Shown here: positions 46,245-63,590 of the stretch, one piece after another
Layout: every line of letters begins with the position of its first letter
Position numbering within the stretch: position 1 is the stretch's first letter
NCBI RefSeq assembly: GCF_900009135.1
Contig: NZ_LT797701.1
Location: 600,170 to 664,169 of the forward strand
Length of the DNA: 64,000 bases
Source of the DNA: Planktothrix sp. PCC 11201
Lineage (GTDB): Bacteria; Cyanobacteriota; Cyanobacteriia; Cyanobacteriales; Microcoleaceae
Reading direction: 5' to 3'
Program-made: the position numbers and the translations under genes
The notes under the pieces: generated by a model
Told to the model about the DNA's origin: nothing
The model's database searches: none
What the model saw: only the letters and a program-made list of their open reading frames with translations

Positions 46245-49200
46245 TTACAAATCCCGACTTTTATCAGAACTTTGTAAAGCTTTTGTAAGTTGATCCCCAT
46301 GGGGTGGGACAGTGCTCTTACCATTATTATGACCATTTCCATTAGAATAAGATCCGTTGTCTGTATTCAAAGCGACATTTTCTAAATGTTGTTTTGGAGA
46401 ATTGTGCCCCATCAAACGGGATTGAATACTGGTGGCAATCACATAAAAAACTGGAATAATATACAAACTTAGAAGCGTAGAAACAAACATTCCACCCATT
46501 ACCGCCATACCAATGGCGACCCGACTCGCGGCCCCTGCCCCCGTGGCAAAAGCTAGGGGCATCACCCCTAAAATCGTTGATAAAGCCGTCATCATAATCG
46601 GGCGAAATCGTAACCGACAGGCTTCAATGGCTGCCTTTTGAATTGATAATCCCTGTTCCCGTAATTGGTTAGCAAATTCCACAATTAAAATCGAGTTTTT
46701 TGTTGCTAATCCTATTAACATAATCAACCCAATCCGACTAAACGCATTTAACTCTAATTGTGCTATCCATAACGCCCCAAATGCCCCTAATAAAGACAGA
46801 GGAACCGCTAATAGAATAATCACAGGGTCAATATAACTTTCAAATTGGGCAGCTAAGGTTAGGAAAATAAACACTAAGGCAAGGGCAAAAATAAAATTAG
46901 TTGCTTGACCCGCTTCTTTAAATTCTAAAGATTCCCCAGAAAAAGCGGTACGCATATCCGGGGGTAGAATTTCTTTAGCTAAATTTTCCAAGGCATTTAA
47001 CGCCACGCCTAAACTAACTCCCGGGGCTGGACTGCCTTCTAAAGTGGCAGAACGAAAGCGATTAAAATGGTTAATTTGAGGGGGTGTGGTGGCGGTGGAA
47101 ATGGTGACTAAATTACTTAAAGCAATCATTTCTCCCTGTTGGGAACGCACATATAATTGCTTTAAATCCTCGGGATTTGCTCGATATTTCTCATCGGCGC
47201 GAACTACAACTTCATAACGTTGATTTCCCTGATTAAAACTGGTAATTTCCTGACCGCCCACTAAAATTTGTAAGGTTCGGGCAATATCTTGTACAGAAAC
47301 CCCTAAATTTCCGGCTTGAGAACGATCTACACTGATGGTTAATTCCGGTTTATTCAGTTTTAAATTGGTGTCAATATTAACTAACTCTGGTAAATCTCTA
47401 GCGCGAATTACAAAGTCTTGGGAAACTTGTGCCAATTGTTCTAAATCATTACCTTGTAAGACAAATTGTATGGGTTGACCTTGACCGCCTCCGGGTAATC
47501 CCCCTGGATTTGTAGCGAAGACTAAGGCATCGGTAATTGTTGAAAATTTACCCAATAATTTCTTAACAAGAGATTGTTGAGTTTGTTCGGGTTCCGGGCG
47601 TTCAGACCAAGGTTTTAAACGGGCAAAAGAGAATCCTGTATTAGCTTGGGATGCCCCTCGACTAGAACCTGCGATCGCAAAATAACTGGTAATTTCCGGT
47701 ACTTGATTGAAGATATTTTCAACCTGTTTAACCACCCGGTTAGTATAGTTAATACTTACCCCATCTGGAGCCGTAATCGTAGTAAAAATCCGACCCCGAT
47801 CTTCACTCGGTAAAAAGCCCTGGGGTAACTGTAAAAACAACCAAACTGTTAATCCTAAACTGGCAATAAATCCTAAAATAACGACGGGTTTAATTGTCAT
47901 TAATAGCCGTAATGTCCAACCATAAATAGCCGTAATTTTATGCAAAACCCATTCAAATAAATCCAAGGGGAAAGATAGAATTTTCATCAATCCTTGGGGC
48001 TGGGTTTCGTGACGCAATAAACGGGCGGAAAGAGGAGGGGCTAAAGTTAGGGCAACGATACTTGAAAAAACCACAGAAGCGGCTAAAGTTAAGGCAAATT
48101 CATTGAATAATCGTCCACTGGTTCCCCCGGCAAAGGCAACGGGAACAAATACTGCTACTAAAACAACCGTTGTGGCAATCACAGCAAATACCACCTCTCC
48201 AACGGCGGCATAGGTCGCTGGAAAGGCATCTAGCCGTTTTTCTTCCATATAACGGATGATATTTTCTAAGACTACAATCGTATCATCCACGACTAAACCC
48301 GTGGCTAAAGTTAAGGCAAATAGGGTTAAGGTATTAATCGAAAATCCCAGAAAAAACATCACACTAAATGCCCCAATTAAAGAAATGGGAATCGTGACGG
48401 CTGGAATTAAAGTAGCTCTCCAATTTCTCAAGAATAAAAAGATAATTAAAACCACCAGTCCAATCGAAATTAACAGACTGATCCAAACTTCTTCAATCGC
48501 AAGTTCTACAAACTCGGAATAATCTACCGCAATTTCATAGCTGAGTCCTTCAGGAAAACTTTTTTTGAGTTCCGCTAATTTAGCTTTAATTCCGTGGGCA
48601 ACTTCTATTAAATTCGCATCGGCAAGTTTACTAATTCCTAATCCCACGGCAGGATTGCCATTAAAACGGGCAATTACCTGATCATCTTTTGCCCCAATTT
48701 CTGCCCGTCCAATATCTCTAATTTTAACTTGCGAGCCATTATCATTACGTTTAATAATTAAGTCTTCATAATCTTGGGGAGTTTGCAGTCTTCCCAAAGT
48801 TCTCACGGGATATTCTGTTTCTTTTCCTTCAATTCGACCACTGGGAATTTCAATATTTTGTCGTCTTAGGGCTTGTTCAACATCTAAAGCGGTAATTTGA
48901 CGGGCTGCCATTTTCAGGGTATCTAACCATAATCGCATGGCATAACGGCGTTCTCCTGAAATAGAAACACTATTAACACCATCAACCGTTTCTAAAGCAT
49001 TTTTAATATAAAGATCGGCGTAATTACTTAACTCTAAAGCTGATAAAGTTTGACTAAAAAAGGCGATCCATAAAATTCGTTCATCATCTCCAGATCGTTT
49101 TTCTACCACTGGAATATCAACATCATCGGGTAATTTTCCCGCCCCCCTCGCCACCCGACTTCTAACTTCTTGGGCAGCTACTTCTAAATCTCGATTTAAT

Positions 49201-49484
49201 TCAAATTGAACAGAAATAGAACTGCTTCCTTCTCGACTACTAGAAGTTAGGGTTTTAATCCCAGCAATACCGTTAATTTGTGCTTCTAAAATCTCCGTAA
49301 CTTCTGTTTCTACTACTTGGGGACTTGCCCCCGGATAGCTGGTACTAACAGTAACAATGGGCGGATCAATTTTAGGATATTCCTGCACCGGAAGCCGAGT
49401 AAAACCGACTATTCCTAAAATAATAATTAGCAACGAACAAACCGAAGCAAAAACAGGTCTTTTAATAAAAAAATGAGTAAACAT
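46245..49484 (-). CDS. RND efflux pump inner-membrane subunit (HAE1/AcrB type)
   Basis: The 1079-residue protein is a proton-driven resistance-nodulation-division exporter. It has two homologous halves, each with one membrane helix, a large periplasmic loop and five more helices. Family landmarks are FIKRPVFASVCSLLIIILG at the start, the proton-relay Asp pair in LATGLVVDDTIVVLENI, and IGLIMLIGLATKNSILIVEF plus RFRPIMMTALSTILGVMPLA in the second half. The C-terminus is a Asn/Gly-rich tail. It is the last gene of a padR-adaptor-pump operon. Substrates (drugs, lipids, metabolites) are unknown; an outer-membrane TolC would be encoded elsewhere. Confidence 0.94.
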   Translation of the reverse strand: MFTHFFIKRPVFASVCSLLIIILGIVGFTRLPVQEYPKIDPPIVTVSTSYPGASPQVVETEVTEILEAQINGIAGIKTLTSSSREGSSSISVQFELNRDLEVAAQEVRSRVARGAGKLPDDVDIPVVEKRSGDDERILWIAFFSQTLSALELSNYADLYIKNALETVDGVNSVSISGERRYAMRLWLDTLKMAARQITALDVEQALRRQNIEIPSGRIEGKETEYPVRTLGRLQTPQDYEDLIIKRNDNGSQVKIRDIGRAEIGAKDDQVIARFNGNPAVGLGISKLADANLIEVAHGIKAKLAELKKSFPEGLSYEIAVDYSEFVELAIEEVWISLLISIGLVVLIIFLFLRNWRATLIPAVTIPISLIGAFSVMFFLGFSINTLTLFALTLATGLVVDDTIVVLENIIRYMEEKRLDAFPATYAAVGEVVFAVIATTVVLVAVFVPVAFAGGTSGRLFNEFALTLAASVVFSSIVALTLAPPLSARLLRHETQPQGLMKILSFPLDLFEWVLHKITAIYGWTLRLLMTIKPVVILGFIASLGLTVWLFLQLPQGFLPSEDRGRIFTTITAPDGVSINYTNRVVKQVENIFNQVPEITSYFAIAGSSRGASQANTGFSFARLKPWSERPEPEQTQQSLVKKLLGKFSTITDALVFATNPGGLPGGGQGQPIQFVLQGNDLEQLAQVSQDFVIRARDLPELVNIDTNLKLNKPELTISVDRSQAGNLGVSVQDIARTLQILVGGQEITSFNQGNQRYEVVVRADEKYRANPEDLKQLYVRSQQGEMIALSNLVTISTATTPPQINHFNRFRSATLEGSPAPGVSLGVALNALENLAKEILPPDMRTAFSGESLEFKEAGQATNFIFALALVFIFLTLAAQFESYIDPVIILLAVPLSLLGAFGALWIAQLELNAFSRIGLIMLIGLATKNSILIVEFANQLREQGLSIQKAAIEACRLRFRPIMMTALSTILGVMPLAFATGAGAASRVAIGMAVMGGMFVSTLLSLYIIPVFYVIATSIQSRLMGHNSPKQHLENVALNTDNGSYSNGNGHNNGKSTVPPHGDQLTKALQSSDKSRDL

Positions 49485-49550
49485 ATTATTAGGTTATTGA
49501 ATGTTTGTAGTAAGCCCTTCAAGGCTTCAATCAGCAGTAAACACCCCTCC

Positions 49551-51146
49551 CTAACGTTTACCCTTTGAAGTCTGATCGGAATTAGCAGGTAAAATATTAA
49601 TAGCCGCACCATCGGATAGTTTTTGTGTACCGGAAATAATCAATTTCTGTCCTGGTTTAAGTCCTTCTAAAATTTCGGCGCGATCATTTTGAATTAAACC
49701 TAATTTAATCGTCTGTTTTTTAGCCGTTAATTTTTCTTCCCCTTCCGCAATAAATACAAATCGCTGATCACCTTCAAATTTAACGGCGGTCATCGGAATC
49801 ACAACGGCATTTAGTTTTTGTTTCCAAACTACTTCAGCCCGCACAAATTGACCATCTTTAAATAATCCTTGACTATTATCAAAACTAGCCTTTGCTAAAA
49901 TAGTTTGGGAGTCTTGATTTACCGAAGGCGAGATAAAACTAATTCGTCCTGTTCCTAATATTTTACCTTGAGGATCAACCATTTGTACCGATAATCCTAA
50001 CTTTAAATCCTCTTTACGTTCTAAAGCTATTGGTAAGCGCAATTCTAACTGATCATTCGCAGTTAAACGGGTGAGAATATCTCCTTTACTAACATAATCT
50101 CCTACTTTAATTCCCACATCACCAACAACCCCAGTAAAGGGTGCTAAAACGGCTGTTTCTTGTAAATCCAATTCAATATTCCGCACCTGAGCCACTGCTT
50201 CAGCAACCTGGGCTTCCGCCTGTTGTATTTCTTGGATACGAGTGCCACTTTCTAATTGATTTAAAGCCTGTTGTTCCTGTTCAATAACGGCTTGACGGAG
50301 ATTAATTTCTGATTGTCGATTTTTTTGTAATTGTTCTAAACGGCGTTTAGCGGCTTGCAAATTCGCATTAGCACTATTTCTTTGAGACGATAACGCATCA
50401 AATTGATCTTGGGAAATTGCCCCGGATTCGCTTAAATCTTGAAAGCGATTCACTCGATTTTGAGCTAATTCGGCATCGGCTTGAATTGAATCAATTTGAG
50501 ATTTGGCTTGATTAATTTCTGCTAATAAACTACCGGATTCCGCATCGGCTAATCTAGCTTTTGCTTCGGCTAATTTTGCCCTTCCTTGAGCAATTTCTTC
50601 AGGACGACTTCCGGCTTGTAATTCTGATAAACGGGCTTGAGTCCGAACTAAATTGGCTTTAGCTTGATTTAAACTTGATTCTACACTATCACTTTTGAGG
50701 CGAGCGATCGCGTCTCCCTGTTCAATCACCTGCCCCGATTCCACTAAAATCTGGGTAATTCTACCTTCAATTTCTGGCTTAATATCCACTGCCCGTTTTG
50801 CCTCTAATGTCCCAACAAAATCAGAGGTTTCTTCAAAATCAAAAGTTTCTACCGCAGCGATTTTAACAGCATTTCCCCTCGGCTTACTAGCTTTTTCCGA
50901 GGTTGGGTTATCCCTATTTTCAGGGGTAGCTTGCCACCATTGTCCTCCGACGAAACCCACCCCCAACGCCATTAAAGTAACCAGTAAAATTTGGAACCCT
51001 CCGGTTTTATAAGCCGAGGGTTCTGGAGCAACTTTTATGGGTAAAGATTTAGCTGGAAAATCAGTTATTTCTTGTTGATTTTCCGACTCAATCCATTCTT
51101 GATCCTGTTCTTTCACCGTAGATTTAGGGAATTGTAAATCAGACAT
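49551..51146 (-). CDS. RND efflux periplasmic adaptor (membrane fusion protein)
   Basis: The 531-residue protein links the RND pump to an outer-membrane channel. A cytoplasmic N-terminal tail of about 50 residues precedes one membrane segment (GFQILLVTLMALGVGFVGG). The split lipoyl domain is at GTLEAKRAVDIKPEIEGRI and VLAPFTGVVGDVGIKVGDYV. Between them is a long coiled coil of about 190 residues, with a tandem AEAKARLADAES-type heptad pattern. Beta-barrel and membrane-proximal domains follow. The long hairpin and long N-terminal tail are larger than in AcrA. It starts 80 bases after padR and ends 66 bases before the pump gene. Confidence 0.92.
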   Translation of the reverse strand: MSDLQFPKSTVKEQDQEWIESENQQEITDFPAKSLPIKVAPEPSAYKTGGFQILLVTLMALGVGFVGGQWWQATPENRDNPTSEKASKPRGNAVKIAAVETFDFEETSDFVGTLEAKRAVDIKPEIEGRITQILVESGQVIEQGDAIARLKSDSVESSLNQAKANLVRTQARLSELQAGSRPEEIAQGRAKLAEAKARLADAESGSLLAEINQAKSQIDSIQADAELAQNRVNRFQDLSESGAISQDQFDALSSQRNSANANLQAAKRRLEQLQKNRQSEINLRQAVIEQEQQALNQLESGTRIQEIQQAEAQVAEAVAQVRNIELDLQETAVLAPFTGVVGDVGIKVGDYVSKGDILTRLTANDQLELRLPIALERKEDLKLGLSVQMVDPQGKILGTGRISFISPSVNQDSQTILAKASFDNSQGLFKDGQFVRAEVVWKQKLNAVVIPMTAVKFEGDQRFVFIAEGEEKLTAKKQTIKLGLIQNDRAEILEGLKPGQKLIISGTQKLSDGAAINILPANSDQTSKGKR

Positions 51147-51225
51147 TTTTCAGCCAAGATTGAGGTTGTTTTTACGGAGCAAAATGACCATTAAATTGAG
51201 ACAAAATTAGGGTTATAGTCTAAAG

Positions 51226-51795
51226 TTACAATATATTAAACTCAGTTAACATCTTTCCAGAGGTAGATGCAAAAGCACTAGATTGTTCTTTTTCTAAACA
51301 TTCCTGAAGCCAATCCATTTCTGACTTTAGCATGAACTTGGCCCGTTCCCAAGTGGCGGATTGAAAAGAGTCCGTTACTAACTTTTCCATTTCTTGACTA
51401 TCTAAATAAGTTTGTCGTTGGTGACAAACCCTTAAACGGATCTGAATCAGTTGGACTCGTTCCCCAGGTTCTAAACTTCCGAAAAAGAAATACTTCACTA
51501 AAAATCGAGCGCGACTTTTAACCCAGCTTTCTTGCGGATGTTCCAACATTTTTTCCCGCCAACGAGCGCATCCAGCGGCAGTAACGGCATAAATTCTGCG
51601 ACTCGCTCCTGCACGCCCAGACTCCTCCAACAACACCTGGACTTGACCCCGTTCTTCTAAACGTTTGAGCAAGGGGTAAATCGCTCCATAGTTAACACTC
51701 ATACAACTACTGAGAAATAACTCCAGCTGTTGTTTAAGTCGGTAGCCATGTAAAGGTTCTTGTTGTAATAGTCCGAGGGCAGATAATTCTAACAT
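51226..51795 (-). CDS. PadR-family transcriptional regulator
   Basis: The 189-residue regulator has the PadR winged helix at the N-terminus: LSALGLLQQEPLHGYRLKQQLE, VNYGAIYPLLKRLEERG and GASRRIYAVTAAG. The C-terminal half is helical and serves for dimerisation and ligand binding. PadR proteins often repress an adjacent efflux operon and themselves. Here the gene is first in the operon with the adaptor and RND pump. A perfect TATCAA-A-TTGATA palindrome starts three bases before its ATG, which supports autoregulation (inference). Confidence 0.88.
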   Translation of the reverse strand: MLELSALGLLQQEPLHGYRLKQQLELFLSSCMSVNYGAIYPLLKRLEERGQVQVLLEESGRAGASRRIYAVTAAGCARWREKMLEHPQESWVKSRARFLVKYFFFGSLEPGERVQLIQIRLRVCHQRQTYLDSQEMEKLVTDSFQSATWERAKFMLKSEMDWLQECLEKEQSSAFASTSGKMLTEFNIL

Positions 51796-52543: not shown

Positions 52544-52549
52544 CAATCA

Positions 52550-52801
52550 TCAGAGGTTAAGAAAGTAGATTAAATATATTAAGCTGTCACGAGTAAACAG
52601 ATGAGAATGACCGCCCCCTTCTGTTTCTCTTGTTTTTACCCGAATCAATAAACTTACTTTATGATCGCCAATTTTCGGTATTAACTCAACAGAAACATCA
52701 ATCGTGTGTTTTCCCAGCTTGATTTGTTTGTCAGCAATTTCAATGTTCTTAAATTTTCCATAGTTCCCATAAATAGAATAATAATATGATATTAATAAAA
52801 A
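52550..52801 (-). pseudogene. start-less ORF remnant, possibly nuclease-related
   Basis: The frame from 52801 down to a TGA at 52550 is open for about 83 codons with coding-like composition but contains no ATG or GTG near its start. It encodes YSIYGNYGKFKNIEIADKQI, then DVSVELIPKIGDHKVSLLI and RVKTRETEGGGHSHLFTRD. The last segment has the look of a restriction or nuclease domain, but I cannot name the family. It begins at the stop codon of the HTH protein gene, so it is the 3' part of a lost gene or of a fused C-terminal domain. Confidence 0.5.
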
Positions 52802-53301
52802 TCAGAGTCTACCTGCTTAACTTCATCTAAGCTTAACCCTAGCAATTCTGCAATTTGCTCATCGCTCAAGCCAAATTGCCGTAACTTACCAACTGTTTCA
52901 ATCTTAGTTTGATACTTACCTTGCTGGAAGTCGGGAGTTACAGGCTGACTTTTATCTGGGGTATCACCACGCTGATCGAAGCAAACATTAATGTATCCAA
53001 TACTATTGCTATTAATACTATTATTACCAAAATTAATATTCAAATTTCCCTGTCGTTCTAAGACTGATTTAAGATTATATTTATCAACAGGTTCATCAAA
53101 AACATCTGATAACATTTGTAAAAGCTCGTAACCTACATCCTTAGCATGACCGAAAGAACAACCATAATTTTCTGCAATGTCCATATATTTCTGTCGTTTC
53201 AGTGTTCCCTCGATAATGCGCCGCTGCAAGTCATTTAGATGTTGGCCTGTCTTAGCATAAACAACTTGCTCTACAAATTGCAATACTTCGCGAATGTCCA
53301 T
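52792..53301 (-). CDS. vMAP-N-type HTH protein (conflict-system-associated domain)
   Basis: Residues 1-85 match the HTH domain I know as vWA-MoxR-associated protein N-terminal (vMAP_N): EVLQFVEQVVYAKTGQHLND, QRRIIEGTLKRQKYMDIAEN and YGCSFGHAKDVGYELLQMLS. In cyanobacteria this domain normally caps large AAA, NACHT, TIR or WD40 proteins of signalling and conflict systems. Here it is followed only by an Asn-rich strand region and a short helical tail (VGKLRQFGLSDEQIAELLGL) of the type found at the end of Rpn-like proteins. Total 169 residues. It is divergent from the adk-KAP-CBS run across phased repeats and may regulate it. Confidence 0.72.
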   Translation of the reverse strand: MDIREVLQFVEQVVYAKTGQHLNDLQRRIIEGTLKRQKYMDIAENYGCSFGHAKDVGYELLQMLSDVFDEPVDKYNLKSVLERQGNLNINFGNNSINSNSIGYINVCFDQRGDTPDKSQPVTPDFQQGKYQTKIETVGKLRQFGLSDEQIAELLGLSLDEVKQVDSDFY

Positions 53302-53333
53302 CAGCCAGGTATGTGAGAGAACTGAAGTTATTA

Positions 53334-53411
53334 TATCCGACTTTATCCGACTTTATCCGTCTCGATCCGACTTGTAACTAAAAGTTAAAAAGATCCGTCT
53401 TTTTCCGCTTT
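53334..53411. repeat. helically phased 10-bp repeats in a divergent promoter
   Basis: Four contiguous 10-base units lie at 53334-53373: TATCCGACTT, TATCCGACTT, TATCCGTCTC, GATCCGACTT. Two further relatives follow, GATCCGTCTT at 53392 and TTTCCGCTTT at 53402. The period equals one DNA turn, so a protein could bind all units on one face. They lie 33 bases from the HTH gene start and about 70-140 bases from the adk start. Confidence 0.75.
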
Positions 53412-53477
53412 TTAGTTTTGGAGCGATCGTTTAGGATATTGATGAGTAAAGCGATAGACTGTTGAATCATAAAAAGT

Positions 53478-54065
53478 ATGCGAATTATATTTTTAGGCCC
53501 GAATGGGGCAGGCAAAGGTACTCAAGCTGCGATCGTAGCCAAGGACTTCGGAATTCATCACATTTCAACGGGCGAACTACTGCGCGAGGAGCGAAAGGCC
53601 AAAACAGAGATAGGCCAAAAAGCACAATCTTATATAGATAAAGGGGCATTAGTCCCTGATAGCATTGTGCTAGATATTGTCAGAGAACAATTGACTAAAA
53701 AAGAAGCAAAACCAGGTTGGATATTAGACGGATTTCCTCGGAACGTCGCTCAAGTAGGGGCGTTAGATAAATTATTAAGGGATTTAGATCAGGCAGGTTG
53801 TGATTGCGTTATCAACTTTGACGTGCCAGACTCAGTTTTAGTTCAGCGACTGAGAAAGAGGGCTATCAAGGAAAATCGTACAGATGATACACCAGAAGTT
53901 ATTCGGCGGCGCATCCAAATTTTTCAGGAAGAAACTGCACCTTTAATCAACTTATATAGTGAGTGGTTGTTGCTAGAAACCATCAATGGTTTTATGTCTA
54001 AAGAGGCAGTTACATCAGCAATTAAAGAGGTTTTGTCAGAAGTAAAAAAGTCCACTAAGTCCTAA
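53478..54065 (+). CDS. adk: adenylate kinase homologue (probable paralogue)
   Basis: The 195-residue protein has the full adenylate kinase core: P-loop GPNGAGKGT (residues 7-15; Asn replaces the usual Pro or Ala), AMP site HHISTGELLREE, ILDGFPRN, and a short LID (RLRKRAIKENRTDDTPEVI) without zinc Cys. The conserved Arg residues are present, so it should interconvert ATP, AMP and ADP. The usual cyanobacterial adk lies in the ribosomal-protein cluster near secY; this one sits beside a KAP NTPase and CBS proteins, so I infer a second, specialised copy. The next gene starts 26 bases on. Confidence 0.82.
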   Translation: MRIIFLGPNGAGKGTQAAIVAKDFGIHHISTGELLREERKAKTEIGQKAQSYIDKGALVPDSIVLDIVREQLTKKEAKPGWILDGFPRNVAQVGALDKLLRDLDQAGCDCVINFDVPDSVLVQRLRKRAIKENRTDDTPEVIRRRIQIFQEETAPLINLYSEWLLLETINGFMSKEAVTSAIKEVLSEVKKSTKS

Positions 54066-54091
54066 TTAATAAATCAAGGCGTAAACAAGTT

Positions 54092-55522
54092 ATGTCTTTT
54101 AATCAAGCCGATAGAAATATCATTCGCGGCGGCCCAGGAAGTAGCAGTCAGCTTAATTATGATATTTACGCTGAATTACTGTGTGATATGGCGATCAAGG
54201 CTACACAACCACTTGACCAACAAAATCAAAATTCACATCATAAAGAAGGCGCTTTTACCATTGGTATTTTTGGTTCTTGGGGGAGCGGAAAAACCAGCCT
54301 TATGGCGCGGATGAAAGGGGATTTTGAAAAATTAGCAACTCAGAACCAAAAATATAAAACCGTTTGGTTTAATGCTTGGAAATATGACGATAAACTGGAT
54401 ATTAAAAATGCTCTGATCCAGACCATTCTTAGTCAAATATGTGAAGACAAAACTATTGCTTTAGAAGATCGTAAAAATATTAGAAAAGCGGCTTTAACCT
54501 ATTCAGTTTGCGCTATTAAATTAGCGGGAATTTTAGCAAGAGGATATGTTAATGCTCAAACAGCAGGTTTTATTAATACACAAGCCATAGCTAAACAATT
54601 TGAAATGGTAGTTAATCCTGATGAAAACCCTCACCTCATTAATCCTTATCAATTTATCAATAACTTTGAAAATGTCTTTAAAAATGCAGTGCAAAGTTAT
54701 GTGGGTAACGATGGTCGATTGATGATATTTATTGATGATTTGGATCGTTGCTTACCAGAAAATGCTTTATCTGTCCTAGAATGCTTGAAATTACATTTAG
54801 ATCAGTCTAACTGTATTTTTGTCATTGGAATTGATAAAAGAATTATTGAGCAAGCGGTGGGACAAAGATATCCTAAAGAGCTTGGTATTACTGGTAGAGA
54901 ATATATAGAAAAAATCATCAATCTTAACTTTTTTCTCTCTGATAAAGATCAAGAGGAAGTTAAAAAGAGACTGCTTCAAGGTGATTTAACTTTCGAGTAT
55001 AATAATGCTGATCAAATATGGGGAATGGTTGCTAAAGCTACTAATTCAAATATCCGTAAAATGCAGCAATTTATTACAGCTTTTTACATGATTCAAGAGA
55101 TTGTGAAAAAACACAACTCTACCCTTGCCAATAAGCTGGAGGAAAAACGATTAACCACCGAGGAGAAAAGCATAATTGAAAAGACAAAAATAGACTGGAA
55201 TACAGATAACAAGTATAAATTTTGCAAAATAATTTTACTCCAGTTAAATTTTCCTGAGTTTTATGATCGTTTAGCTAACAATCATAAACTTATGGATCAA
55301 ATATACACGGCTTGGAAAAGTAAAGGTGGAACAGATAATGACATAGATAATGGCATAGATAATTTAATCAAGTTTAAGGATGAATATCCAATATTTGCAC
55401 AATTCTTAGAAGATCGAAATTTAATAGACTTTATAGTTACCTACTATAAGGATGGCAAAATCAAAAATAGTGATGACTGGAAAGTGATTCAAAAACTATC
55501 TCAATCTGTAACTTATATGTAA
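54092..55522 (+). CDS. KAP-family P-loop NTPase
   Basis: The 476-residue protein is a KAP NTPase. Walker A is GIFGSWGSGKTSL (residues 58-70), then the family motif TVWFNAWKYDDKLD, Walker B MIFIDDLDRC near residue 212 and FVIGIDKRII after it. The C-terminal half is helical. KAP proteins often insert membrane helices into the ATPase domain; I see no strong membrane segment here, only a mildly hydrophobic stretch near residues 145-165. Bacterial members include the phage-exclusion protein PifA. The function of this one is unknown; its neighbours are an adenylate kinase homologue and two CBS proteins. Confidence 0.88.
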   Translation: MSFNQADRNIIRGGPGSSSQLNYDIYAELLCDMAIKATQPLDQQNQNSHHKEGAFTIGIFGSWGSGKTSLMARMKGDFEKLATQNQKYKTVWFNAWKYDDKLDIKNALIQTILSQICEDKTIALEDRKNIRKAALTYSVCAIKLAGILARGYVNAQTAGFINTQAIAKQFEMVVNPDENPHLINPYQFINNFENVFKNAVQSYVGNDGRLMIFIDDLDRCLPENALSVLECLKLHLDQSNCIFVIGIDKRIIEQAVGQRYPKELGITGREYIEKIINLNFFLSDKDQEEVKKRLLQGDLTFEYNNADQIWGMVAKATNSNIRKMQQFITAFYMIQEIVKKHNSTLANKLEEKRLTTEEKSIIEKTKIDWNTDNKYKFCKIILLQLNFPEFYDRLANNHKLMDQIYTAWKSKGGTDNDIDNGIDNLIKFKDEYPIFAQFLEDRNLIDFIVTYYKDGKIKNSDDWKVIQKLSQSVTYM

Positions 55523-55671
55523 TATTTGAACAATTTAAGTCAATTTTTGGCCAAGTTGTTATTTGGGTTGATGATTTTTTATCAGAAACACAAACAGAAA
55601 ATTCTAACCTAGAAAACAAAAGTAAGTCGGAGTCTCAAACTATCGAATCAACTCTTGAAATCAATGTCAAT

Positions 55672-56604
55672 ATGGAAAATAGCGATGCAGTCAGTTTAGA
55701 AGATACGAAAGTCATAACTCATGATTTTTGTATCTTGAAAGACACAGATACAGTAGCAGAAGCATTAGCTCTAGTTACTGTGCAAAATGCAAGTGAAATT
55801 GTCATTGTCGATGAGGATAAAAAATTTGCGGGTATCCTAACTGACTTATCAATTTTACAATCATTACCACCGCCAGTTTTAGATGTACCTGTTAAGTTTA
55901 GAATTAAAAACCCTAAATTTCGCAAACAATTAAATGAGGAATTAGTTAATAGTTTAAAAAAGCCGATAAAAGAGGTATTTGAACTAGAAAAAATTAAGCC
56001 TTATACATCTAAAAATCAGAGGTTAATTTATGCGATGGATAAATTGGTCGAATCCTATAAATCAACTTCAGCAATCAGAGTTTTACCTATTATCAATGAG
56101 GACGAAACAGTTTATGGCGTAGCTTCTCCCGAAACCATCTTAAGTCACATTAAATCTAATCAAAAATTTTGTCAATTGAAAGCCGAACGCTTTTTAGCGT
56201 TACCGGAAGAGAGTGGTATGGAACAACCATATACTCTATTACCATCAGATACCCTAGCTCAAGCTCGATTTGCGATGAAATATTTGCCGATAGACTATAT
56301 AACTATCTGCGATAAAGATGGCAATTTGCTAGGAATAGTTGATAAAAAGCAGGTGACGAAACTGACTCATCCGATGTATTTTAGTTTAATGGGTATATCA
56401 TTATTGAAAATAATGAAACCTTTAACTAAATTATGTTTGGTCGATAAAAGTCAACCGTTGCAAGAGTGTATTAATGCTTGCTTAAATTTGGCATTTAAGG
56501 AAGTAGTTATTATTGAACAATTGGCAGAAAAATTTTACCCAAAAATGGTAGTAACGCCAATTGAGATTTTACAATTACGCTTACAAGTTTACCGTCAAAG
56601 TTAA
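55672..56604 (+). CDS. multi-CBS-domain protein, N-terminus uncertain
   Basis: The 310-residue protein has CBS-like units at about residues 10-60 (TVAEALALVTVQNASEIVIV; FAGILTDLSIL), 95-150 (VLPIINEDETVYGVASPE), 190-235 (LAQARFAMKYLPIDY; NLLGIVDKKQV) and 255-305. Such domains bind adenine nucleotides. No catalytic domain is attached. The reading frame is open well upstream of the ATG at 55672, with coding-like sequence back to the end of the KAP gene (FEQFKSIFGQVV, VDDFLSETQTENSN) but no in-frame standard start. A second frame from a TTG at 55526 (NNLSQFLAKLLFG) hints at a frameshift. The real N-terminus may be about 50 residues longer. Confidence 0.75.
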   Translation: MENSDAVSLEDTKVITHDFCILKDTDTVAEALALVTVQNASEIVIVDEDKKFAGILTDLSILQSLPPPVLDVPVKFRIKNPKFRKQLNEELVNSLKKPIKEVFELEKIKPYTSKNQRLIYAMDKLVESYKSTSAIRVLPIINEDETVYGVASPETILSHIKSNQKFCQLKAERFLALPEESGMEQPYTLLPSDTLAQARFAMKYLPIDYITICDKDGNLLGIVDKKQVTKLTHPMYFSLMGISLLKIMKPLTKLCLVDKSQPLQECINACLNLAFKEVVIIEQLAEKFYPKMVVTPIEILQLRLQVYRQS

Positions 56605-56626
56605 ACAATAATGGAGGATTTTAATC

Positions 56627-57688
56627 ATGTCTATTAATAATATGAACTCACTTATTAGTCAGGTTTTTCCTAGACTTTCACAGAATAGACCATTATACTG
56701 GTTAAAGCCAACTGACAAAGTGGCCAAGTTAGATGCTATGATGGATATACGGAATATCAGACACGTCCCCATTATTGAGCCTATTGATCAAAGCGTTCAA
56801 CCAAGAGGAGAGTTATTAACTGTTATTAACAAAACAGATTTAGTAAAAATTTTCACTCCTCCTAATGAACTATATCCGCCCCAATTTCCTCTTACACCTC
56901 AAGAAAAATTGGCAGTAGCAAGCTTTAGTAAAGATATTAGTGCAAAACGTATTAATCAAATTCCAGAGTTTGTACAACTTATGACGATACCTGTTAAAAC
57001 TCTTTCTCTTGGCAATAGTACAGTTGGTAATGTATTTGACGCTTTAATCAATCCTGTAAAACCCGAAGGACAAAATTTTACTCGACGATATCGGACTCTA
57101 TGTGTATATGGGCACAATCAGCTTATTGTAGGAACAATATCTTACACGGATGTATTGCGTGAAATCAACGATCCAGCTCCAAGTCGTACACAGTTCTTAA
57201 TGGAAACTATAGATCAAAATAGCCTATTTAAGAAAAGAGCGGATCTTATCGTATTAACTGAGGATGAAGATTTGCTCCAAGCCCGAAAGATTTTGAACGA
57301 CAATGACTTCACTCATATTCCTATCACAACACCAGATGGTAGATTTGTGACAGGAATAGTTGATGATGTGATTGTTAATACTTTCTTACACGATAAAATT
57401 TTTGATCTATACTCAGAATTGCCGTTGAAACATATTATGCTTCCGCTAAATAAGAGGAATAGTGTAAGTCCTGGGACTGTGACATCTAGGGTGATTGAAA
57501 CATTTGTTCCACCTAATTCCAAGGATAGACCTACGGCTCTTGTAGTTTGCACAGAAGACCCTAATGGTGGGAATTTTACCTTAGACGGAATAATCAGCTA
57601 TACTGATATCTTCCGAGGCTTTCAAAACTGGGCAAATCCACACAAATCCCCAACTCCTAAACCAGAAAATAAAGTGCAAGATAATTGA
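56627..57688 (+). CDS. four-CBS-domain protein
   Basis: The 353-residue protein has four CBS units: residues about 20-80 (AKLDAMMDIRNIRHVPIIEP; LTVINKTDLVKIF), 125-185 (GNVFDALINP; LIVGTISYTDVLREI), 205-255 (LLQARKILNDNDFTHIPI; FVTGIVDDVIV) and 270-340 (VTSRVIETFV; DGIISYTDIFRGF). It follows the first CBS gene by 22 bases with GGAGG before the ATG, so it is in the same operon. The two proteins could form a heteromer that senses AMP/ATP and acts on the KAP NTPase or the kinase (inference). Confidence 0.8.
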   Translation: MSINNMNSLISQVFPRLSQNRPLYWLKPTDKVAKLDAMMDIRNIRHVPIIEPIDQSVQPRGELLTVINKTDLVKIFTPPNELYPPQFPLTPQEKLAVASFSKDISAKRINQIPEFVQLMTIPVKTLSLGNSTVGNVFDALINPVKPEGQNFTRRYRTLCVYGHNQLIVGTISYTDVLREINDPAPSRTQFLMETIDQNSLFKKRADLIVLTEDEDLLQARKILNDNDFTHIPITTPDGRFVTGIVDDVIVNTFLHDKIFDLYSELPLKHIMLPLNKRNSVSPGTVTSRVIETFVPPNSKDRPTALVVCTEDPNGGNFTLDGIISYTDIFRGFQNWANPHKSPTPKPENKVQDN

Positions 57689-57754
57689 CGCAAACCAACT
57701 CAAAAAATGCTTCCTAAATGATAGAATTAACTTGAGACAATACTGGTGAATTTT

Positions 57755-57808
57755 GATTAAAATTAGTCCGCGTAGGCGGACTTTGTTTGTGTAGCTGCGA
57801 TTTTAATC
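57755..57808. repeat. palindromic cyanobacterial repeat (AGTCCGC-GTAG-GCGGACT)
   Basis: A tight hairpin, AGTCCGC/GCGGACT, is at 57765-57782, followed by TTTGTTTGTGTAG. Outer arms GATTAAAAT (57755-57763) and ATTTTAATC (57800-57808) enclose it. This repeat is common in filamentous cyanobacteria. Between converging operons it probably terminates transcription both ways. Confidence 0.82.
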
Positions 57809-57831
57809 GCTAGAAATTGGTACTGCTACTG

Positions 57832-62681: not shown

Positions 62682-63479
62682 TTATTCCTCTAAATCAAAG
62701 GATTCTTCTAATTCTAATTCTAAAGACAACTGGGCTTCTACTGATTCTAACTTCACATCTTCCCGCTTGGAAACATAATCAACTAATTTAATCCAGTCAA
62801 TCTGATTATTTTTCATAAAATAACGCATAAATTCTTGCGTCATTTCATTGATTTTAGCAGAATAAGTTGCTTTAAAAATTTCATCTTTTTTCTTGGCTTC
62901 TATGTCAATGGGTACAATCATCTCCTGGTAGAAATTATCATCTTCTGAGATAAAATTCCAAAAATCTTGGCCAGCATATTTAAAATAGACTTTATCTGGA
63001 TCTTAATCCGCTTTCAAAGGGTTTTTATCTTTTCCATACATACAACCATTTACAGCCACAATTTCCTGAGTTATTCCTCTCTTTTTATGCCAAATATATT
63101 CTTCAGTCCATAACCATCCTTGTTGTTGCATTTCTAAAATTAACTTAATAACGTAGTTATGCCTTTCTCCATTAACAACTTTTTCTTTGATATTAATAAT
63201 AAAGGTTCCATCTTCTTTTAAAACTCTGTACAATTCCAGAGAAATAGGAAGAAACCATTGGACATAATCATCTGGATTAATCCCGCCATAGGTTTTTTTC
63301 CTGCTATCTGCATAGGGAGGAGATGTTACAATCAGATCGGCTATATTAGAAGGAATTTGCTGCAAAACTTTTGAGCAATCACCTAAAATAATTGTGTTGT
63401 ACCAATCTTTTTCAGAGGTAATTATCTCCTGCTGATTAGGATTTGATATTAGTTTTAATTCTGGGGGGTGAATACTCAA
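62682..63479 (-). pseudogene. fused remains of a DNA methyltransferase and a restriction endonuclease (PmeII-like)
   Basis: Reading down the minus strand from a TTG at 63479 (GGAG seven bases before it), the first 130 codons are the N-terminal half of a DNA methyltransferase: IILGDCSKVLQQIPSNIADL, the catalytic TSPPYADSRKKTYGG, DYVQWFLPISLELYRVL and EEYIWHKKR. The frame then changes character to VNGCMYGKDKNPLKAD, a TAA at 63003-63005, and continues in the same frame with DPDKVYFKYAGQDFWNFISE and PIDIEAKKKDEIFKATY to 62682. The second part resembles the C-terminus of PmeII-type restriction enzymes (recalled from memory). A deletion seems to have joined the two, followed by a nonsense mutation. 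Confidence 0.7.
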
Positions 63480-63590
63480 TGTAACTCTCCAAAGAAGCGA
63501 TCGCTTTTTCCCAATCAAACTCTATCAGTTGTAATGATCTCGAATCAACTTGTTGAAAGGAAGAAGGAGCCCGGTCGGGCTCACTACGGT

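Follow-up and report, generated by a model that had tools for sequence, protein, structure and literature searches.

A 64,000-nucleotide stretch of the genome of Planktothrix sp. PCC 11201 (contig NZ_LT797701.1, positions 600,170 to 664,169; hereafter the window), from an assembly of 5.99 Mb in 103 contigs that is 99.7% complete, carries four co-oriented genes that encode an adenylate kinase (Adk), a KAP P-loop NTPase and two proteins with four CBS motifs each (CBS_A and CBS_B). A gene for a helix-turn-helix (HTH) protein diverges from them. An earlier note, made from the sequence alone, had suggested that the set may be an undescribed nucleotide-sensing system; the arrangement, coordinates and intergenic gaps that it gave (26, 149 and 22 bases between adk, KAP, CBS_A and CBS_B) were the same on recomputation. 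The main features are listed by window position (L006 and L007 are the closest copies of the set; handles with L denote loci, those with G genomes).

53301-52792, minus strand: divergent gene for the HTH protein, 169 amino acids (aa); open reading frame (ORF) call, with a Pfam HTH_23 match (E 5.9e-4) below cut-off
53302..53477, no strand: divergent control region, the apparent exchange point between HTH module and payload; from homology borders
53461..57710, plus strand: mobile payload cassette; from 86-94% DNA identity to L006/L007 and a contrast in guanine-plus-cytosine (GC) content with the flanks
53478..54065, plus strand: operon-specific adenylate kinase gene (adk), 195 aa; from ORF call, Pfam, NCBIfam, trees and a ratio of non-synonymous to synonymous divergence (dN/dS) of 0.10
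54092..55522, plus strand: KAP P-loop NTPase gene, 476 aa; from Pfam, with Walker A and B intact and 144 residues between them
55523..55671, plus strand: stretch without stop codon in the reading frame of CBS_A, corresponding to the N-terminal extension that CBS_A has in loci L036-L040; from frame reading and alignment
55672..56604, plus strand: CBS_A, four CBS motifs, a putative structural or pseudo-sensor subunit; from Pfam, with adenosine-site Asp mostly lost
56627..57688, plus strand: CBS_B, four CBS motifs, a putative sensor and the most variable subunit; from Pfam, with adenosine-site Asp in motifs 1, 2 and 4

The labels given earlier to the four payload proteins are borne out by Pfam matches over cut-off (ADK, E 1.4e-49; KAP_NTPase, E 4.6e-38; CBS, E 7.1e-15 and 6.4e-14 for the two CBS proteins). 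Adk also exceeds the cut-offs of two NCBIfam models (NF001381, 223 bits against 187; TIGR01351, 193 against 168) and its P-loop, TG.LLR and DGFPR motifs are invariant in six aligned rows: by model and catalytic motifs alike it has the sequence of an adenylate kinase. The KAP protein likewise has the sequence of a KAP NTPase, scoring 131.6 bits against PF07693 (cut-off 20), with Walker A (GSWGSGKT) and Walker B (FIDDLDRC) invariant in seven rows and 137-164 residues apart. KAP NTPases usually – though not universally – have a transmembrane pair inserted in the NTPase domain; here the best 19-residue hydropathy is 1.05-1.52 over the seven rows, against a usual threshold of 1.6.

The possibility that the operon adk is the only housekeeping copy, raised by the earlier note, is ruled out by genome counts and trees. 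The window's genome encodes three adenylate kinases, of which the operon copy falls in a clade of its own: the six operon Adks form one group, supported at 100/99 with the first housekeeping group alone for comparison and at 90/83 once the second (10 rows) is added. Among 11 genomes searched, two adenylate kinases are present besides any operon copy in ten, and one in the remaining genome (G358); neither of the two in G440 lies inside the operon clade.

The 149-base gap between KAP and CBS_A is open in the CBS_A frame (375 aa, vs 310 aa from the first standard start); it contains no standard start codon in the window, the CBS_A standard start lying only downstream. In five relatives (L036, L037, L038, L039 and L040) CBS_A begins at the stop of KAP or overlaps it, and we therefore consider KAP and CBS_A to be probably translationally coupled in these five. 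The stretch is absent from L006 and L007, where the gap is 13 bases.

Conservation, rarity and mobility of the gene set

The order adk, KAP, CBS_A, CBS_B, with a divergent HTH gene, is found in six loci including the window; the lack of conservation in other genomes that would have refuted the earlier note is thus not borne out. Two copies are close: L006 (an Oscillatoriales metagenome-assembled genome (MAG), on the same contig as L076 of G625, assigned to a different genus within the family) and L007 (Microcoleaceae UBA9251), with protein identities to the window of 94% for Adk, 83-84% for KAP, 88% for CBS_A and 73% for CBS_B. Three are far (G448, G358 and G455), with 54-64%, 44-50%, 39-44% and 28-37% respectively. 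Two further loci hold part of the set: in G299 it is KAP-CBS_A-CBS_B, with neither adk nor HTH gene within the stretch read, and in G440 it is CBS_A and CBS_B together with a KAP that lacks everything before the counterpart of residue 274, being interrupted at the contig start by other sequence (transposase-like by eye). KAP is thus found in 8/8 loci with the CBS pair (one truncated), and adk and the HTH gene in 6/8. Because gene order is kept in six loci, the neighbourhood is not due to chance. The G299 core without adk is the one observation that would fit chance neighbours with independent roles, but the order persists in three far loci whose proteins are 28-64% identical, transfer was joint (below), and the KAP and CBS_A genes abut or overlap; we give that explanation hardly any credence.

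All four genes are, as their sequences show, under purifying selection: dN/dS values for the window vs L006 and L007 are 0.10 and 0.10 for adk, 0.34 and 0.39 for KAP, 0.28 and 0.34 for CBS_A, and 0.45 and 0.47 for CBS_B.

The KAP-CBS-adk set is a rare accessory system. Survey counts include the window's own genome and are based on scoring the best first-look candidates only. CBS_B was found in at least 6/340 genomes of the order and the joint CBS profile in at least 6/320; the CBS_B profile matched at least 6/61 genomes of the family (one of them the trypsin variant described below) and at least 1/10 of the genus. CBS_A was found in at least 1/386 genomes sampled evenly across the phylum (the window's genome alone) and at least 1/244 in another count, KAP in at least 2/292, the second match being a different KAP protein beside genes that by eye are type I restriction-like. 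Of 23 loci with KAP relatives in named genomes, adk is present in L006 and L007 only: the other 21 gave no adk match in the available stretch, and L013 alone among them has CBS matches, in long multidomain proteins at least 3 kb from KAP.

Between the window and L006, which belong to different genera, DNA identity is 86-94% from 53461 (17 bases before adk) to 57710; between the window and L007 it is 88-91% from 53458 to 57683. The operon Adks of the window and G625 are 94% identical, the housekeeping Adks only 56% and 63%. Since cassette identity across genera so far exceeds that of housekeeping Adk, transfer is indicated, and sequence comparison shows the four genes to be a mobile cassette, jointly transferred. 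The GC content of the cassette is 34.8%, vs 39.7% and 42.9% in the flanks. Carriage of the set by phages, plasmids or viruses was considered and rejected after searches with three of the proteins. CBS_A relatives were found neither in viral contigs (75 pattern-matching stretches, none confirmed) nor in plasmids, phages not being searched; CBS_B gave no match in phages, plasmids and viral contigs not being searched. KAP matched 12 viral loci, with an adk or CBS match in 0/12 within the available stretch, and 149 plasmid records, all at less than 60% identity.

Both sites at which close copies lie are variable. Two further features of the window belong here.

52544..57831, no strand: variable site, from the Crp-like gene to the 88-aa and pth genes; congeners have other genes here
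52586..52786, minus strand: relic of part of a 325-aa gene, 91% identical to congener L080; from DNA comparison with L080

The window site was read in 6/7 congeners that have a closely matching counterpart of the adjoining Crp-like gene, three of the genes being scanned with Pfam. An 882-aa gene occupies it in L079, L081 and L083 (the scanned copy, from L079, is a DNA methylase plus Mrr endonuclease); L080 has a 325-aa gene that matches nothing in Pfam, together with a DNA methylase and a transposase-like gene (by eye), L081 and L082 a radical-SAM-like gene (by eye), and L078 an HTH and a PIN-like protein (by eye) without the cassette. The 201-base relic corresponds to part of the L080 325-aa gene, which adjoins the DNA methylase; an L080-like relic beside the operon means that a restriction-type module probably once stood at the window site and was lost. 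The second site, that of L006 and L007, lies between a larA-like gene and rpsD and holds the cassette in L006. Among ten regions of the other genus (two ended by contig ends) the same MFS-type gene is present in nine (in L181 by Pfam, in the others by eye), and G440 additionally has a caspase and an EAD10-NACHT gene. On sequence evidence the cassette sites are thus variable and, in some relatives, shared with defence genes. At the L006 cassette site, positions 2697-8155 of L184 hold a caspase gene, an EAD10-NACHT gene and a 641-aa gene without Pfam match. Adjoining the site in the window (46245-51795) are genes resembling by eye those of an RND efflux pump and membrane-fusion protein, together with a PadR-type regulator (Pfam); further on (63003-63518) is a short DNA methylase-like frame with a TSPPY motif by eye, possibly a broken restriction gene.

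The divergent HTH gene and the trypsin variant

The HTH protein had been labelled vMAP-N in the earlier note. No vMAP model in Pfam or NCBIfam matched it (whether the library includes a vMAP-N model is unclear) and its relatives instead cap NB-ARC proteins; the label was dropped in favour of an NB-ARC-capping HTH family. NB-ARC was present in all five scanned family members of at least 460 aa, three of them from the window's own genome, and a sixth, shorter member has pentapeptide repeats only. The family occurs in 166/195 genomes of the order, with up to 18 scored matches per genome, and where members stand alone they usually lie divergent to accessory genes of mixed kinds (20 regions, by eye; in one, L132, no gene diverges from the HTH gene in the part read). 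Given this capping and wide presence, the HTH protein is a general accessory regulator or adaptor and not a signature of the KAP-CBS-adk set. Other observations on the family and its surroundings are a 272-aa HTH protein of G448 (L036, 13872-14690) with pentapeptide repeats and a C-terminus that is nuclease-fold-like by eye, followed by a DUF4351 gene; a serine-rich 96-aa frame (L078, 5749-6039) divergent to the HTH gene at a site that lacks the cassette; and a repeated ATCCG-type motif upstream of the window's HTH gene (53320-53420), partly present in L077, which may be an HTH operator.

HTH proteins identical to the window's at 95% and 70% are encoded in L078 and L077. On the HTH side homology ends at about 53420 for L077 and at 53360 for L078; on the payload side it starts at 53461 (L006) and 53458 (L007). 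The HTH gene opposite the payload in L006 and L007 is of another type, although the payload itself differs little from that of the window (the two types compare with an hhalign probability of 2.7%, from profiles of 4 rows only). Regulator and payload are, by these borders, swapped at the divergent control region. A sharp exchange point, and a divergent HTH gene in 6/6 adk-containing loci, might be expected of a selfish or addiction element in which the HTH protein keeps a toxic cassette in check and the set propagates itself. We regard this as highly improbable, however: L078 keeps the HTH gene without the cassette, two HTH types stand opposite nearly the same payload, and inspection by eye of the ORF lists for the window, L006, L007 and L039 showed no integrase or transposase of the unit.

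Divergent from the 70% identical HTH gene in L077 (G628) are a Trypco1 gene (E 1.1e-15), one for a trypsin-like protease (E 6.9e-17) and one for a homologue of CBS_B (CBS, E 4.1e-20). In conflict systems Trypco1 accompanies trypsin-like peptidases, according to a part of PMC7159879. The replacement of adk-KAP-CBS_A by a protease, beside the same types of HTH protein and CBS_B, is the strongest argument from sequence for a role in conflict.

The CBS pair, known systems and the proposed function

Aligned with each other (280 columns, hhalign probability 99.7), CBS_A and CBS_B prove homologous throughout; they differ at the Asp that, in CBS motifs, holds the adenosine ribose. In motifs 1 to 4 this Asp is present in 8/8, 6/8, 0/8 and 8/8 rows of CBS_B, and in 0/8, 1/8, 0/8 and 4/8 rows of CBS_A; the L077 homologue has the CBS_B pattern. 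AMPK gamma, in which three of the four motifs have the Asp, and archaeal MJ1225 also have four CBS motifs per chain. MJ1225 (E 7.2e-11 to the CBS_B profile) and AcuB are among the solved relatives of that profile. With three of four Asp kept, CBS_B is a putative AMPK-gamma-like sensor; the present set differs in having no kinase subunit, in whose place a KAP ATPase would stand. Adenylate kinase acts as an amplifier for AMPK.

CBS_B is also the subunit that varies most. At their common site, L006 and L007 are 97.5% identical in DNA for the HTH gene, 95.9% for adk, 96.4% for KAP and 96.1% for CBS_A, but 80.7% for CBS_B (L006 10394-11407 vs L007 7351-8394), the drop starting at the CBS_B gene; flanking genes are 88.4% (guaA), 86.3% (larA-like) and 94.4% (rpsD) identical. 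The dS of CBS_B is 0.377, vs 0.090-0.145 in the other three genes. This raised dS, from one MAG locus pair at one site together with the window, points to exchange of CBS_B alleles and hence is no proof of positive selection.

The earlier suggestion that KAP is related to phage-defence NTPases holds at the level of partial matches. NCBIfam QatA ('Qat anti-phage system ATPase') matches KAP at E 9.9e-35, although its 120.3 bits fall short of the cut-off of 600, and no other Qat model matches any of the five proteins, which sets them apart from QatABCD. PifA, itself a KAP protein, matches at E 2e-24 over profile positions 35-268 of 720, short of full length. Tmn is described in part of PMC11846954 as a KAP-family NTPase with two transmembrane domains; in the window KAP none is clear. 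The PADLOC candidate model PDC-S20 is matched at E 1.2e-33 across positions 38-379 of 464, a match that qualifies for this model, in a collection of defence models only. CBS and Adk partners are, to our knowledge, not part of the descriptions of PifA, Tmn or PDC-S20.

The nearest solved fold to that predicted for KAP is RdrA of RADAR, at fold level only: by sequence the KAP profile has no solved relative at E 0.01, and RdrA is absent from the 34 chains listed at E 10. KAP is thus predicted to have an RdrA-like ATPase fold, but the five proteins include no RdrB deaminase, with Adk and two CBS proteins instead. RADAR couples RdrA with an ATP-modifying enzyme, according to part of PMC9994260, and by established Adk chemistry a KAP ATPase and an Adk together could run as an ATP-to-AMP engine. 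A RADAR-like weapon might be built in this way: KAP would convert ATP to ADP and Adk ADP to ATP and AMP, driving the pool down to AMP, with the CBS proteins as switch. The ATPase activity of KAP is only predicted, RdrA has no match by sequence, other Adks already exist in these genomes and L040 lacks adk; we think such a weapon distinctly unlikely.

CBS-based sensing in defence has a recent precedent. DS-11 (CBS-HEPN, DefensePredictor, 2026) uses a CBS domain as the adenine-derivative switch of a defence effector, and before it there was no characterised defence system with CBS domains, as stated in part of PMC13092281. DS-11 is a single protein with a HEPN domain, without KAP, Adk or a four-CBS pair. 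Among the VMAP/iSTAND/EAD conflict systems (PMC7159879 and PMC8195603, in part) both the Trypco1 and trypsin of L077 and the HTH-capped NB-ARC proteins have their like, and KAP may displace the STAND NTPase in conflict systems, in a passage of PMC8195603. The vWA, MoxR and VMAP components of VMAP ternary systems gave no match among the five proteins in Pfam and NCBIfam, and the main texts of PMC7159879 and PMC8195603 contain neither 'CBS' nor 'adenylate kinase'. Among the titles and abstract openings listed by searches of an open-licence library there is no system that joins KAP, CBS and adenylate kinase, which agrees with the earlier claim of novelty, and none that ties adenylate kinase to a defence operon. 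KAP-type defence proteins are already known; their combination with a CBS pair and Adk is undescribed, a KAP-based conflict variant with a fair chance of being more.

We infer that the set is a KAP-based conflict system, probably gated by adenine nucleotides. In the form we favour – and hold to be somewhat likelier true than false – it would be a mobile, undescribed and most likely anti-phage system, directed at phages or mobile elements, of a KAP/RdrA-type ATPase, a CBS_A/CBS_B adenine-nucleotide sensor that restrains or frees it, and an Adk that sets or amplifies the signal. CBS_A, made in step with KAP, would anchor the sensor to it, with the region separating Walker A from Walker B as predicted docking place, and would itself bind nucleotides weakly if at all; CBS_B, going by its motifs, would bind AMP, ADP, ATP or an adenine-nucleotide alarmone at three intact sites. 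Infection would disturb the adenylate pool, and the extra Adk would amplify a slight drop in ATP into a steep increase in AMP, in the manner of AMPK signalling. KAP would then change its assembly or ATPase state and stop cell or invader; the divergent HTH protein would control the set or link it to the genome's HTH-capped NB-ARC proteins. A more specific version is a kill switch thrown by adenylate charge, in which the logic of AMPK would be combined with RADAR-like machinery: on infection ATP would fall, Adk would make an AMP spike, CBS_B would read it and free KAP, and KAP and Adk would burn ATP to AMP in a self-reinforcing abortive response, with CBS_B an exchangeable sensor and the HTH/CBS_B chassis serving a trypsin effector as well. 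This version is offered tentatively, as an unlikely one.

The same parts – a nucleotide kinase, an NTPase and CBS proteins – could alternatively make up an energy-charge stress module unconnected with immunity, in which CBS_B would respond to AMP/ATP, KAP would act by remodelling some target in the host (growth arrest, dormancy or membrane) and Adk would buffer nucleotides. CBS domains bind adenine derivatives (PMC13092281, in part), and adk is the most constrained of the genes (dN/dS 0.10), which speaks for such a module. Its distribution is nevertheless patchy (at least 1/10 genus and 6/61 family genomes), it is mobile and lies at sites that in some relatives hold restriction or caspase/NACHT genes, and KAP matches defence models, although PADLOC has no others. 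The stress module, though the most credible of the rivals, is in our view rather unlikely. The earlier interpretation is supported in its conserved unit, its extra adk and the defence homology of KAP; its vMAP-N label is unconfirmed, and its nucleotide sensing and phage trigger stay putative. Added to it are mobility, variable sites shared with defence genes, the division between CBS_A and CBS_B, the trypsin variant and the predicted RdrA-like fold.

With CBS proteins and Adk joined to a mobile KAP ATPase, energy-charge sensing as a trigger of the response to infection would become directly testable, and at 4.2 kb the cassette is small enough for practical transfer into laboratory strains. The set would link RADAR-type ATPases and AMPK-type sensing with the NB-ARC-rich repertoire of filamentous cyanobacteria.

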